Part shown: positions 23,377 through 27,829 of the stretch, in pieces | Position numbering within the stretch: the stretch's first letter is position 1 | How the letters are laid out: every line of letters starts with the position of its first letter | DNA from: Leifsonia aquatica H1aii | GTDB lineage: Bacteria > Actinomycetota > Actinomycetes > Actinomycetales > Microbacteriaceae | DNA: 64,000 nt | Direction: 5' to 3' | NCBI RefSeq assembly: GCF_000633535.1 | Contig: NZ_AYMR01000011.1 | Span: forward strand, 1 to 64,000 | The notes under the pieces: model-generated | What the model saw: only the letters and a program-made list of their open reading frames with translations | Told to the model about the DNA's origin: nothing | Database searches by the model: none | Program-made: the position numbers and the translations under genes

Positions 23377-24093
23377 TCAGGCGCGCGGCCAGGCGCGGAC
23401 GAAGCGGTCGAAGAGCTCGGCGAAGGTACGGGCCTCCTCCGGCGAGAAGTCGGCGAGGGCCGACTCGACCGCGCTACGACGATGCGTGCGCACCTCGTCG
23501 AGCTGGGCGCGACCCGCGGCCGTGAGCTGGATGAGCGCGCGCCGGGCGTCGGACGGATCCGGGACGCGTCGCACGTGCCCGCGCTCGACCCCCTCCTGCA
23601 CCAGGCGGCTCGCCCGGGGCTGATCGACGCCGATCGCCTGCGCGAGGGAGCTGATCGAGAGCGGGCTGCCCGCGGCCTCCGCGGTCTCCAGCGCCTCCAG
23701 CATCCGGATGCGGGCGATGCGGCCGAGGCTGCCGTCACGCCCTCTGCGGCCCGGGCCGGGGCGCGCGGAATCGCCGAACGGCGGGTGGTCGTGGTCGGGA
23801 TGATGTCCGGTGCGATCGCGTTCGGGGCGGTCGTGGGCGCCGTGGTCGTGGGCGACGTACCCCTGAGCGCCGTGTCCCTGAGCCCCGGTGCCCGGAGCGT
23901 CGCGGTCGCCCCCGGACGCCCCCCACGGCCCTCGCGGGCCCCAGGCGTGCGGGCCACGGCCGAACGGCTCCCCCCAGGGGCCGGGCGGACGACGGCGCGA
24001 TTGATCGCGCCGCACCGCGACCAGCGCACTCTCGATCAGAGCGATCACGTCCGCTGAGGGCGAACCGTGCTGAGCTTGACTCTCGTCATCCAT
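23377..24093 (-). CDS. MarR-family regulator with His/Gly-rich disordered insert
   Basis: 238 aa. An N-terminal helix (about 13-30) is followed by about 90 residues (32-122) of low-complexity sequence rich in Gly, His, Pro, Arg and Asp (for example GEPFGRGPHAWGPRGPWG and HDHGAHDRPERDRTGHHPDHDH). The MarR winged helix occupies about 125-190 (SISSLAQAIGVDQPRASRLVQEGVERGHVRRVPDPSDARRALIQLTAAG), then a dimerisation helix. Start ATG 24093 lies 7 nt after the -10 TATAGT, inside an inverted repeat. The insert could bind metal or mediate condensation; this is inference. It is divergent from a second regulator of the same style. Confidence 0.85.
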   Translation of the reverse strand: MDDESQAQHGSPSADVIALIESALVAVRRDQSRRRPPGPWGEPFGRGPHAWGPRGPWGASGGDRDAPGTGAQGHGAQGYVAHDHGAHDRPERDRTGHHPDHDHPPFGDSARPGPGRRGRDGSLGRIARIRMLEALETAEAAGSPLSISSLAQAIGVDQPRASRLVQEGVERGHVRRVPDPSDARRALIQLTAAGRAQLDEVRTHRRSAVESALADFSPEEARTFAELFDRFVRAWPRA

Positions 24094-24109
24094 GTATGTA
24101 ACTATACAT
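24092..24109. promoter_or_regulatory. Operator ATGTAT-N6-ATACAT between divergent MarR genes
   Basis: A perfect inverted repeat with 6-bp arms covers the start codon and -10 box of the minus-strand MarR gene. A further ATACAT half site lies at 24122-24127, upstream of the plus-strand regulator. AT-rich sequence is unusual in this window, supporting an operator bound by one or both MarR proteins. Confidence 0.7.
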
Positions 24110-24148
24110 TTACTTGTCACGATACATGCAAATAGGAAGGGGTCCCCG

Positions 24149-25210
24149 ATGACGAACATCGACGACTCGAACAACACCCCTGCCTCGACTCCGCCCGGAT
24201 ACTGGTTCGGCGAGATCGAGGGCCGGCTGCGCGACCGCATGCGCGACGCGCTGGCCGAGCAGGGCCTCCGCCGCGGCGGCTGGCGCCTGCTCCACTCCCT
24301 CTCCGAGGGCCCGGCGACCGCCGCCGAGCTCGCGGACCGACTCCCCCGCGGGCGTCGCGGCCACGGACGCGGGCACGGACGAGACCACAGCCACGGGCAC
24401 GGCGCTTTCGGCCGCGGTCGCGATCACGACGGTTCCGGCACGCCGGAGCGTGGTGAGCGCGGCGAGCGCGGCACTGGCCGCGACGGATTCGACCGCGGCG
24501 GGTTCGACCCGCGCGAACGCGCCGGTTTCGACCCGCGCGACGGCGGCGCGCGCCACCCGTACCCGCACCCTCGCGCGCAGGCCGCCTGGACCTACAGCCG
24601 CGAGACGTGGCGCGCCGAGCGCCCGTTCGGGCCGGGAGGCGGCCACCCCGATCGCCACGACGCCGACTCCCACGCCGAGACTCACGGTCACGACGGGCCG
24701 CGCGGCCACGAACACCACGACCACCACGACCGCGAGGCCGCCTTCGAGCGCGGCTTCGAGCGCGGGTTCCTGCGCGGCTCCGCCGCGGCGCCCGCGTTCG
24801 GCGGACCGTTCGGCGGACCGTTCGGCGGACCCGGCGGCTTCCGCGGCGGCCGCGGCTTCGGCCCGCACCGCGGTCACGGCGGTCCGCAGGCACGCTGCGA
24901 CGGCGACCGCCGCGCAGCACGCATCGAACGCATCCTCGCCGACTTCACCGAACGCGGCTGGGTCTGGTTCGACGGCGACCGCGCGACGCTGACCGACGAG
25001 GGCCGTGCCGCCCACGACGCCGCGTTCGTGCGGATCCAGGAGGTGCGCGGGGCCATGGCCGACGGCATCTCGGACGAGGACTTCGCCACCACCCTGGCCA
25101 CCCTCGAGACGATGGCCCGCAACCTCGGCTGGGAGCCGCGGGAGCAGCGGGAGCAGACGCCTGGCGGCGAGCCGGGTGCGGCGGAGACAGGTCGGACCGA
25201 GAACGACTGA
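24149..25210 (+). CDS. MarR-like regulator split by a large low-complexity insertion
   Basis: 353 aa. Residues 20-66 read as the first helices of a MarR/PadR winged helix (RLRDRMRDALAEQGLRRGGWRLLHSLSEGPATAAELADRLP) and residues 253-330 as its recognition helix, wing and dimerisation helix (RRAARIERILADFTERGWVWFDGDRATLTDEGRAAHDAAF). Between them lie about 185 residues of Gly/His/Arg/Asp/Phe-rich sequence, with GGFDPR and FGGPFGGPFGGP repeats and a His cluster HEHHDHHD. The start at 24149 has AGGAAGG upstream. The insertion point, between the two HTH helices, is very unusual. It shares a control region with the divergent MarR gene. Confidence 0.8.
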   Translation: MTNIDDSNNTPASTPPGYWFGEIEGRLRDRMRDALAEQGLRRGGWRLLHSLSEGPATAAELADRLPRGRRGHGRGHGRDHSHGHGAFGRGRDHDGSGTPERGERGERGTGRDGFDRGGFDPRERAGFDPRDGGARHPYPHPRAQAAWTYSRETWRAERPFGPGGGHPDRHDADSHAETHGHDGPRGHEHHDHHDREAAFERGFERGFLRGSAAAPAFGGPFGGPFGGPGGFRGGRGFGPHRGHGGPQARCDGDRRAARIERILADFTERGWVWFDGDRATLTDEGRAAHDAAFVRIQEVRGAMADGISDEDFATTLATLETMARNLGWEPREQREQTPGGEPGAAETGRTEND

Positions 25211-25303: not shown

Positions 25304-27145
25304 TCACCCGATACGACGACGCCTCCGCACGACCGCGAGCGCCGTGATCCCGGCTCCCACGAACAGCACGGCCAGCGCGGGCACGACGACGGCCGCGCCT
25401 CCCACGCGCGAGCCCGTCGCGGCGAGCTCGCCGGCCGCGATGCTCGCCGGCACGACGCCCGCCGCCTCGGCGCCTTCGCCGACCACGCCACCGCCGGCCG
25501 CCGAGCGCGGAGCCCACGCCGCCGAGAACGTCTGCGCCGCCATCAGCGGCTGGAGGGAATCCCGCACCGCGTCGTCGGCGAAGAGGGTGCGCATCGCGCC
25601 GTGGTCGAGGCCATTGGCGACGGCGGCCATGATCATCGACTGGTCAAGGGAGAGGTAGCGCTCGGCGGTGCGACCGCTGTGCACGGCGACGGCGTCGTAG
25701 AAGCCGCCGGGGCCATAGGCGTGCAGGTCGCGTTCGATGCCACGCAGGTTCTCGACCGCGCCGTGGGCGTCGTAGCCGAGCGCCAGGAACGACGCGTGCG
25801 GCGTCACGACGCCGTCGCCGTACGTCGGCGTCGGATTCGTGCCGCGTTCGGCTGTCGGGCAGCCCTCGAAGGGCAGGTCGACGTCGGTGTTCTCCTGGTC
25901 GGAGAAATACCCGTCGGCGCGCATCCCGGCAGCATCCACGCCATACTCGCGGTAGCCGCCGTCCGGGTTGCTGGCCGGCGAGAAGCCCCAGTAACCGTAG
26001 CCGGCGTCCTGACCGTGCTTCTCCTGCACGGCGACCGTCACCGGATGATTCACGCCCCATGAGGTCGGGCCCCAGTCCTCCTCGGGCACCAGGAGGTCCG
26101 GCATCAGCGCCTCGAACATGCTGCCGCCCCAGCTCGGGACGAATCGCATGCCGTCGTACCGGTAGGCGCCCTCGTAGACGGTGAGGCCGCCGTAGACGCG
26201 GTCCTCGCCGACGGGGCTCTGCTCCTGCCACGCGTAGTCGCACCCGGCGGGCATGGTGCGGAAGGTGCCGTACAGGCCGGTGGGCGGGATCTGCCCATTG
26301 ACGATGCCGAGGTAGGTGGCGATGCGGCTCTCGCTGACCGTCGTGTCGTACCAGTGGCAGGTGTAGAAGACGTTCGGGCCGCTCCCGGAGAACGGGGCCC
26401 GCTCGCTGGCGCAGGTGTCGCCGGGCTGCTCCTCCCAGAAGCCGCCCTTGTTCGTCCCGGCGGGGAGGTGGGGATTGTACGGGGTCGGGTCGAAGAAGAC
26501 GCCGAAGTCCATCGAGTCGTAGAGCGCGCGGGCGCGGTCGGTCAGCGTCGGCTCTCCGTTCGCGACCATGCGCAGTGCCGCCGCGAGCCAGCCGTTGTCG
26601 ACCGTGCTGAGGAAGGGATGGACGACCGAGCCATCCTCCGGCCACGTCGTGAGCTTCTGCCCGTCGGCGGGCGAGTACCAGTTGTAGAACATGCCGCTCG
26701 CAGCGTTGCGTTCGAGGTGCTCGAGCGTGCCGATGGTGGTGGTGAGCCGGTCGCGCGCCTCGTCCGCCGAGATGATCCCGAGCCCGCGCGCGGCGAGCGT
26801 CGACCAGAGGTAGCCGCCGACGTTGGTCGGGGAGGTGTGGCCGCTCGCGGACGCGGGGTCGAGGCTGCCGTCGATGTTGTCGGCAGGGAGGCCGACGGCC
26901 GGGTCGGTCATCGCGTCGAGGGAGTGCCAGGTGTCGGCCGCCCATCGGTGCAGGTCGGCGGAGAACGGGGTGGCGTCGCCGGAGGCGGGACCGTGGGTGT
27001 CGACGGAGATCGCGGCTGGTTCCGTGCGGGCGGGACCCGGTGGTGCTGCGACCGCCGGAGCGGCCAGGGCGACAGCGCCGGCGAGCGCGGCGGCGAGGGC
27101 TGTTCCGCCGGTGCGCAGGGCGCGGCGGGAGAGGTGAAGGGGCAT
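25304..27145 (-). CDS. Wall-anchored glucoamylase-like enzyme with LAATG sorting signal
   Basis: 613 aa. A signal peptide with a twin-Arg start (SRRALRTGG, then a hydrophobic stretch ending AVAAP) precedes an (alpha/alpha)-barrel-like enzyme of the PF10091 glucoamylase / DUF3131 type: NVGGYLWSTLAARGLGIIS, GMFYNWYSPADGQ, FLSTVDNGWLAAALRMV, GDGVVTPHASFLALGYD, YLSLDQSMIMAAVANGL. The C-terminus has LAATG (574-578), a 20-residue membrane helix and RRRRR, a class E sortase substrate signal. It is therefore expected to act on glucans at the cell surface. Of two adjacent ATGs, 27145 is better spaced from AAAGGAC. Confidence 0.8.
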   Translation of the reverse strand: MPLHLSRRALRTGGTALAAALAGAVALAAPAVAAPPGPARTEPAAISVDTHGPASGDATPFSADLHRWAADTWHSLDAMTDPAVGLPADNIDGSLDPASASGHTSPTNVGGYLWSTLAARGLGIISADEARDRLTTTIGTLEHLERNAASGMFYNWYSPADGQKLTTWPEDGSVVHPFLSTVDNGWLAAALRMVANGEPTLTDRARALYDSMDFGVFFDPTPYNPHLPAGTNKGGFWEEQPGDTCASERAPFSGSGPNVFYTCHWYDTTVSESRIATYLGIVNGQIPPTGLYGTFRTMPAGCDYAWQEQSPVGEDRVYGGLTVYEGAYRYDGMRFVPSWGGSMFEALMPDLLVPEEDWGPTSWGVNHPVTVAVQEKHGQDAGYGYWGFSPASNPDGGYREYGVDAAGMRADGYFSDQENTDVDLPFEGCPTAERGTNPTPTYGDGVVTPHASFLALGYDAHGAVENLRGIERDLHAYGPGGFYDAVAVHSGRTAERYLSLDQSMIMAAVANGLDHGAMRTLFADDAVRDSLQPLMAAQTFSAAWAPRSAAGGGVVGEGAEAAGVVPASIAAGELAATGSRVGGAAVVVPALAVLFVGAGITALAVVRRRRRIG

Positions 27146-27268
27146 CATCGTCCTTTCGCCGGCATTCCGACAGCGGTGTGCGGAATGGCGGACGTCACGG
27201 TTTCGAGCGAGTGTATGCGCATACATCCGCACTCGCAACCCTCTCGGCCTCTCGCGACCGGCGACGCC

Positions 27269-27280: not shown

Positions 27281-27829
27281 ATGACGCCATCCCGGGAAGA
27301 GGTCGTGCTGCTGGCCGAGGACGGGACGCCGATCGGGACGGCCGACAAGGCCACCGTGCACACCACCGAGACACCGCTGCACCTGGCGTTCTCCTGCCAC
27401 CTCTTCGACGGCGAGGGGCGCATCCTCGTCACCCGCCGCGCGCTGGGCAAAGCCACCTGGCCCGGCGTGTGGACGAACTCGTTCTGCGGGCACCCCGGCC
27501 CCGGCGAGACGTTCGACGACGCGATCGTCCGCCGCGCCCGGGAGGAGCTCGGGGCGTCGATCGAGAACCTCGTGGTCGCCCTGCCGGACTTCCGCTACCG
27601 CGCCGTCGACGCCGGCGGGATCGTGGAGTACGAGATCTGCCCCGTCTACACGGCGACGATCTCGGGCGAGCTCGCCCCGTCCGCCGCAGAGGTCGCGGAA
27701 TGGGAGTGGGCGGACCCGCGCACACTGCTCACCGCGGTGGAGGCGACCCCCTGGGCGTTCAGCCCATGGCTCACCCTCCAGCTCCCGGCGCTCTACGGGG
27801 CGGACGACGAAGCTTCGGGCCAGCTGTGA
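27281..27829 (+). CDS. idi: Isopentenyl-diphosphate delta-isomerase, type 1
   Basis: 182 aa Nudix-fold enzyme interconverting IPP and DMAPP for isoprenoid synthesis. Catalytic Cys is in TNSFCGHPGPGE, with the Nudix-like helix GPGETFDDAIVRRAREELG. The metal-binding acidic motif is seen in VEYEICPVY and EVAEWEW. Length is normal. It is single-gene and probably leaderless. Confidence 0.96.
   Translation: MTPSREEVVLLAEDGTPIGTADKATVHTTETPLHLAFSCHLFDGEGRILVTRRALGKATWPGVWTNSFCGHPGPGETFDDAIVRRAREELGASIENLVVALPDFRYRAVDAGGIVEYEICPVYTATISGELAPSAAEVAEWEWADPRTLLTAVEATPWAFSPWLTLQLPALYGADDEASGQL

Follow-up and report, generated by a model that had tools for sequence, protein, structure and literature searches.

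In the genome of Leifsonia aquatica H1aii, two MarR-like genes, here called P1 and P2, diverge from a shared control region with 55 nt between their start codons, and both proteins are interrupted by long His/Gly-rich segments. In P1 the segment sits in the turn of the helix-turn-helix (HTH), where a long insertion (100-350 residues in this family) is unexpected because the turn sets the DNA-reading geometry. The locus raises the question of whether both proteins read DNA, and what the segments, which we also call arms, are for. The window is the whole 64,000-nucleotide stretch that we analysed (contig NZ_AYMR01000011.1, positions 1 to 64,000), and its relevant features are collected in Table 1 with those of a few compared loci.

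Table 1. Features of the gene pair, its surroundings and compared loci. Positions are those of the window unless another locus is named; the gene ranges of P1 and P2 include the stop codon.
Feature	Position	Strand	Basis or remark
P2, MarR-family DNA-binding protein, 238 aa	23377..24093	-	Pfam MarR_2; 26/28 genus genomes
P2 low-complexity insert, residues 35-123, between helix 1 and winged helix	23725..23991	-	dN/dS, alignment
Putative P1 -35 element TTGACT, within P2 codons	24076..24081	+	candidate; TTGAC kept across several genera
ATGTAT-N6-ATACAT of the sequence-only reading	24092..24109	.	letters present; register not conserved
Operator site A, TGTAACTATACA	24097..24108	.	conserved in relatives; pattern nearly confined to this promoter
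Putative P2 -10 element TATAGT, 7 nt before ATG	24101..24106	-	candidate, sequence reading
Operator site B, TGTCACGATACA, one departure here	24115..24126	.	TGTA-N4-TACA in many relatives
P1, MarR-like partner, 353 aa	24149..25210	+	family profile; 26/28 genus genomes
P1 His/Gly-rich insert, residues 69-253, in HTH turn	24353..24907	+	profile, dN/dS
Motif FERGFERGFLRG, P1 residues 199-210, inside insert	24743..24778	+	motif count in relatives
P1 C-terminal core: recognition-helix part, short wing, last helices	24908..25138	+	profile and wing comparison
Glucoamylase-like gene, C-terminal anchor-like end	25304-27154	-	by reading; separates P1 from idi
NUDIX gene, read as IPP isomerase (idi)	27281-27829	+	adjoins P1 in many Leifsonia relatives
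MarR-like gene divergent from crtE, likely CrtR	L204 9022-9588	+	same genome as window
Cation-efflux gene near P2 end	L110 3128-4051		one of 15 such Microbacterium loci
Arm-free divergent pairs	L217 2418-3381; L219 2559-3513		

A recurrent divergent pair

Relatives of P1 and P2 are present in the same 26 of 28 Leifsonia genomes, each time as adjacent genes that diverge from each other; the remaining two genomes, which lack the pair, have sizes of 2.6-2.7 Mb. With the Pfam match of P2 and the profile match of P1 described below, this bears out the sequence-only reading, which had described the genes as a divergent pair of MarR-like regulators. The search for named loci covered the best 80 of 173 related places. 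P2 adjoins P1 in 70 of these best 80, and in all 70 the P1 gene has a long segment, located in the HTH turn in 14 (11 in Leifsonia, 3 in Plantibacter) and at the C-terminus as a tail in 56 (Microbacterium, Agromyces and their kin). In one locus, L120, the P1 tail lacks His altogether and is apparently out of frame.

Ten of the best 80 named loci had no P2 that we could see. Two of them (L139 and L157) have a long-tailed P1 and little sequence upstream, one (L172) has a short P1 with only 138 nt upstream, and seven have a short P1 with enough upstream sequence and no P2 beside it. Similarly, no P2 was found beside the P1 gene in 14 short P1 loci from a family search, at least three of which coincide with named loci; an Atg22-like transporter gene is nearby in 12 of these 14. 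Three loci (L071, L088 and L205) have a second, short P1 in addition to the P1 form that stands beside P2. At E 1e-22, P2 was matched in 31 of 299 family genomes from 13 of 85 genera. The P1 match in genome G076 was only weak (E 5e-5), and searching P1 against plasmids gave no match. A literature search, which does not prove absence, turned up no description that we recognised as such a pair.

For alignments and trees of P1 we left out L058 and L061; alignment A3 comprises 68 P1 sequences, of which 31 were trimmed to fragments with ends close to those of the core. The first tree lost L087, the second was built without L088, L158, L169 and L071b and with the tail forms thinned, and L217 and L219 are in no tree. 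Of the P2 sequences, L059 is in alignment A2 and omitted from A4, L044 is omitted from both, and the P2 start of L063 was not located. The short P1 form is one clade in the trees, so the counts of segmented pairs above are not independent events. As to the origins of the HTH insert, the starred branches force two changes, and the AU test does not reject a single clade (p 0.326).

P2 has the sequence marks of a DNA-binding protein

P2 scores above the Pfam cut-off for MarR_2 (36.6 bits against 27, E 5.1e-9). In 38 of 39 P2 relatives the wing is 15 residues long with a mean of 3.8 Arg/Lys, and the same number have a charged wing with D-x-R, the exception being L059, which is out of frame. The wing and the VDQPR motif are nearly invariant in alignment A4. 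Against the model for AdcR-type zinc MarR proteins (NCBIfam NF038251), P2 reached 15.1 bits where the cut-off is 175. P2 bears the sequence marks of a DNA-binding member of the MarR family.

P1 is a MarR-like protein with a short wing

No Pfam family matched P1 of the window over any cut-off, and MarR_2 was found at E up to 0.01 in 12 of 68 P1 relatives. A search with the single P1 sequence found no MarR chain. The profile of the 68 relatives, on the other hand, matches MarR chains lengthwise, the best being HcaR (3k0l, E 1.1e-7, profile positions 12-138), so the MarR fold of P1 is visible only through the profile of its relatives. The profile alignment puts the insert after the helix that leads into the turn and ahead of the recognition helix, and the two halves of P1 can therefore be regarded as one interrupted MarR domain. 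Both halves of the HTH are conserved within Leifsonia.

The wings of P1 and P2 differ in the sequences that we could read by pattern (118 of 124 proteins). The P1 wing has a median of 8 residues, with group means of 0.2-0.9 Arg/Lys, and a D-R pair is present by pattern in 15 of 24 Leifsonia P1 wings. Profile comparison also makes the P1 wing 7 residues shorter, which is the same gap as in the wing counts. P1 was accordingly found to have no full-length charged DNA-contacting wing. A wing of this length is also found in the unpaired short P1 proteins and therefore does not depend on the presence of an arm.

Composition and constraint of the His/Gly-rich segments

The sequence-only reading had placed about 90 low-complexity residues between helix 1 and the winged helix of P2 and about 185 residues in the middle of the P1 HTH, and both estimates were accurate: we find 89 and 185 residues, respectively, and the profile alignment puts the latter in the turn. 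His makes up 10.1% of the P2 insert and 10.3% of the 194 residues between the P1 cores as delimited by domain models; the figure for 10 neighbouring genes is 1.9%. The P1 insert contains 20 His, and 2000 nucleotide shuffles of it gave a mean of 4.8 and a maximum of 12. In the pooled Leifsonia P1 inserts His reaches 14.2%, compared with 2.4% in the cores, and the composition is also rich in Gly, Arg and Ala. Clustering of His above that of shuffled sequences was seen in 21 of 24 Leifsonia P1 inserts and in only 2 of 64 tails (L120 was omitted from the tail test).

Comparison of homologues confirmed the suggestion that the inserts vary in length between conserved helices, and the P1 inserts of 24 Leifsonia proteins span 132-355 residues. 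The P2 insert is present in all 35 armed pairs measured, at 36-143 residues. Against three near relatives, dN/dS was 0.20-0.33 for the P1 insert and 0.12-0.35 for the P2 insert, values that are rough since repeats hamper the alignment, and it was 0.03-0.05 for the P2 winged helix and 0.07-0.31 for the two P1 cores. The motif FERGFERGFLRG occurs in 19 of 24 Leifsonia P1 proteins, in none of 11 other insert forms and in 45 of 65 tail forms. Pfam Yae1_N is weakly matched by 2 of 68 P1 relatives, not necessarily through FERGFERGFLRG. The number of His in the P1 segment rises with that in the P2 segment (rho 0.60, p 0.004, n=21; rho 0.55, n=35), with no correction for relatedness.

We also considered whether the inserts could be assembly artefacts or frame errors, which the sequence-only reading had named as grounds for discarding it. 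The two parts of P1 share a reading frame in 24 of 26 genus genes and dN/dS is below 1, which rules out an assembly artefact. Of 52 genus reading frames, 4 appear broken (P1 of L058 and L061, P2 of L059 and L044), through either sequencing error or real loss.

Pairs without arms and partners without a winged helix

Two genomes of two other genera (G086 and G173, loci L217 and L219) encode P1 and P2 divergently, 61 nt apart, with no arm on either protein. P1 is 144 aa in L217 and 143 aa in L219, with 2 His each, and P2 is 157 and 155 aa, respectively, and insert-free; the control sequence differs from that of the armed pairs. These arm-free pairs rule out a requirement of arms for pairing, and the arms are thus unnecessary for it. 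As far as the sequences were read (35 armed and two bare pairs), arms are found in both proteins or in neither.

The divergent partner of P2 has no recognisable winged helix in L087, L088, L199, L216 and L218, loci of five genomes that represent four genus codes. These partners retain a P1-like C-terminal helix and a His-rich segment, mostly as judged by reading of frames, and the L218 partner additionally retains a FERGF-like motif.

The control region

An ATGTAT-N6-ATACAT operator had been proposed for the control region. These letters are present in the window, but their register is not conserved, as the first half is ATGCAT in many relatives. The conserved elements are two sites, A and B, spaced 18 bp, each of which is TGTA-N4-TACA in many relatives. 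Matches to the pattern TGTAAYHRTACA number 45 and fall in 26 of 28 Leifsonia genomes, 43 of them at the P1-P2 promoter; the reversed control has 3 matches, and the two Leifsonia genomes without the pair have none. Both off-locus matches of TGTAAYHRTACA fall in coding sequence. Outside Leifsonia, a strict form of the element is present in 50 of 59 paired named loci (from the best 80 of 173). When two mismatches were allowed in a search of 13 genomes, the genome of the window had 9 matches, one of which is this locus, compared with 4 for the reversed control.

Among eight off-locus sites (two exact and six near), six read as coding sequence, L209 and L210 by likeness to L208. The other observations of this kind are a ATGTAACGATACAT site in L211 between LacI-like and sugar-related genes and one in L212 beside a similar sugar-related gene, all named by reading; these two sites are probably unrelated operators.

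The predicted promoter boxes put site A over the -10 box of P2, and the position of this box suggests that the P2 mRNA may be leaderless. The boxes come from sequence reading, and a strict consensus scan found no promoter, so we treat autorepression as putative.

Genomic neighbourhood and possible signal

A cation-efflux gene (PF01545) is convergent with P2 and ends 150 nt or less from the P2 end in 15 of 46 Microbacterium loci, and a cation-efflux match is found within the flanks of 26 of the 46. No such gene was found near the pair in 36 Leifsonia, 16 Agromyces and 8 Plantibacter loci, counts in which some genomes appear twice. No operator-like site was found before the cation-efflux gene, the lone pattern match (L112) coming from a cut-off locus edge, and cation-efflux genes are common, with 5 in this genome. 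We consider metal to be a plausible signal.

In relatives, the slot occupied by the pair is often near an Atg22-like transporter gene and crt, idi or dcd genes. In the window a glucoamylase-like gene, found in only 3 of 25 genus loci, stands between P1 and the NUDIX gene (Table 1). The crtE gene of this genome is adjoined by a different MarR-like gene, so P2 is not in the place of CrtR.

A proposed two-subunit switch and its alternatives

The reading that we favour, and to which we would give an even chance, is that P1 and P2 are subunits of one self-regulating switch in which P2 reads DNA, P1 serves as its partner and the His-rich arms sense. P2 would be a MarR repressor acting on the two TGTA-N4-TACA sites and repressing both genes, and P1 would be a MarR descendant that depends little on its own winged helix and joins P2 through the helices used for MarR dimerisation. 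The partnership would be independent of the arms, with many lineages carrying His-rich flexible segments in both proteins, and a signal, most likely a transition metal, would act on these segments and alter the grip of P2 on DNA. A P1 HTH that can be spared in DNA binding would be able to accommodate a long segment in its turn. The idea that P1 and P2 work together gains support from the recurrence of the pair across genera, from arms that come in both proteins or neither and from the covarying His counts. A minor role of the P1 winged helix is suggested by the short, poorly charged wing and by the partners that have no winged helix. Evidence on the other side includes the conserved HTH halves of P1 and the D-R pair of 15 of 24 Leifsonia P1 wings, the scarcity of clustered His in tails, and the failure to find the cation-efflux gene at Leifsonia, Agromyces and Plantibacter loci. 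Since a bare pair also supports a partnership, it leaves the probability of our main reading unchanged. We also put forward, tentatively and as a rather unlikely elaboration, that the two genes form a closed loop of a MarR repressor and a MarR-derived partner whose own promoter is the sole clear DNA target. Here the bare pair would have come first and His-rich arms on both proteins later, with the arm of P1 in the HTH turn or at the C-terminus, and the role of the DNA would be to fix how much of a metal-binding or condensing complex is made.

According to the sequence-only reading, both proteins are DNA-binding MarR regulators that may form heterodimers, and the inserts would act as metal or stress sensors or bring about condensation. 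On such a view the P1 HTH would fold round its looped-out insert and read DNA. P2 has the Pfam match and charged wing of a DNA-binding protein, and for P1 DNA binding is favoured by the joint alignment of the halves with MarR chains, their conservation in Leifsonia and the unsplit HTH of P1 in the bare pairs. That the two bind DNA in an equal way is doubtful, however, because the P1 wing is short and poorly charged and the winged helix is absent from partners of four genus codes; we consider this account unlikely. A neutral origin of the segments, in which low-complexity sequence without a function grows in a GC-rich genome at loops that tolerate it, is distinctly unlikely. The wide length range of the P1 insert (132-355 residues), its richness in Gly, Arg and Ala, the two armless pairs and the unclustered His of most tails are all consistent with such growth, but His far exceeds nucleotide shuffles, dN/dS of the P1 insert is 0.20-0.33, a motif is common to the two segment positions and, as far as read, arms occur in both proteins or neither.

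Regulation of carotenoid or isoprenoid genes in the manner of CrtR is suggested by the slot beside crtE/B/I/Eb and idi in several relatives and, in 15 of 25 Leifsonia relatives, by an idi match that starts less than 100 nt from P1 and is co-oriented with it. We regard it as improbable, given the other MarR-like gene divergent from this genome's own crtE, the absence of idi and crt from the 5-kb flanks of all 46 Microbacterium loci and the opposite-strand gene between P1 and idi in the window. Finally, P1 could be mainly a metal buffer whose level P2 adjusts. The His-rich segments, an operator found almost only at the pair's own promoter and partners of which little more than a helix and a His-rich segment remains would fit a buffer, but the partners read retain a P1-like C-terminal helix that a mere buffer would not need, and bare pairs have no His-rich arm, which makes this explanation very improbable.

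Significance and comparison with known systems

The unusual feature noted in the sequence-only reading is real, and its most economical interpretation would be a two-subunit regulator to which His-rich arms add sensing. The natural series of unpaired short, bare-pair, tailed, HTH-split and HTH-less forms points to a possible route by which one transcription factor turns into a partner subunit of another. For little-studied actinobacteria, the locus provides a defined operator. It also offers a small system for direct testing of sensing by disordered His-rich arms, with the arm-free pairs as natural controls.

P1 and P2 share the helix order, winged helix and flanking helices of the MarR family, in which the nearest solved chains by profile are HcaR (3k0l), Rv2887 (5hsm) and 3cjn. 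They differ from it in their long His/Gly-rich inserts, and P1 differs further in its short wing and in an HTH that is split here and missing in some relatives. In Pseudomonas aeruginosa, the MarR repressor MexR is reported to be controlled by a protein partner, the antirepressor ArmR (PMC3290565). The possible likeness to our pair lies in a MarR repressor under the control of a protein partner. ArmR is a short peptide that is not known to be MarR-like or His-rich.

CrtR of Corynebacterium and Micrococcales is described as a MarR repressor at a divergent promoter, with its gene divergent from the crt cluster (PMC6739363). The divergent promoter and, in some relatives, the crt-cluster neighbourhood resemble those of the P1-P2 pair, but the pair is not divergent from crtE, a place that a MarR-like gene elsewhere in the genome fills. 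In Streptomyces griseus, the DNA-binding subunit SrnR and its nickel-binding partner SrnQ act as a joint repressor; SrnR belongs to the ArsR/SmtB family and SrnQ is said to resemble no known protein (PMC7055735). If our two-subunit reading holds, SrnR/SrnQ would be like P1 and P2 in working only, as P1 and P2 are both MarR-like and divergently encoded, and P2 falls in the MarR family and not in ArsR/SmtB.
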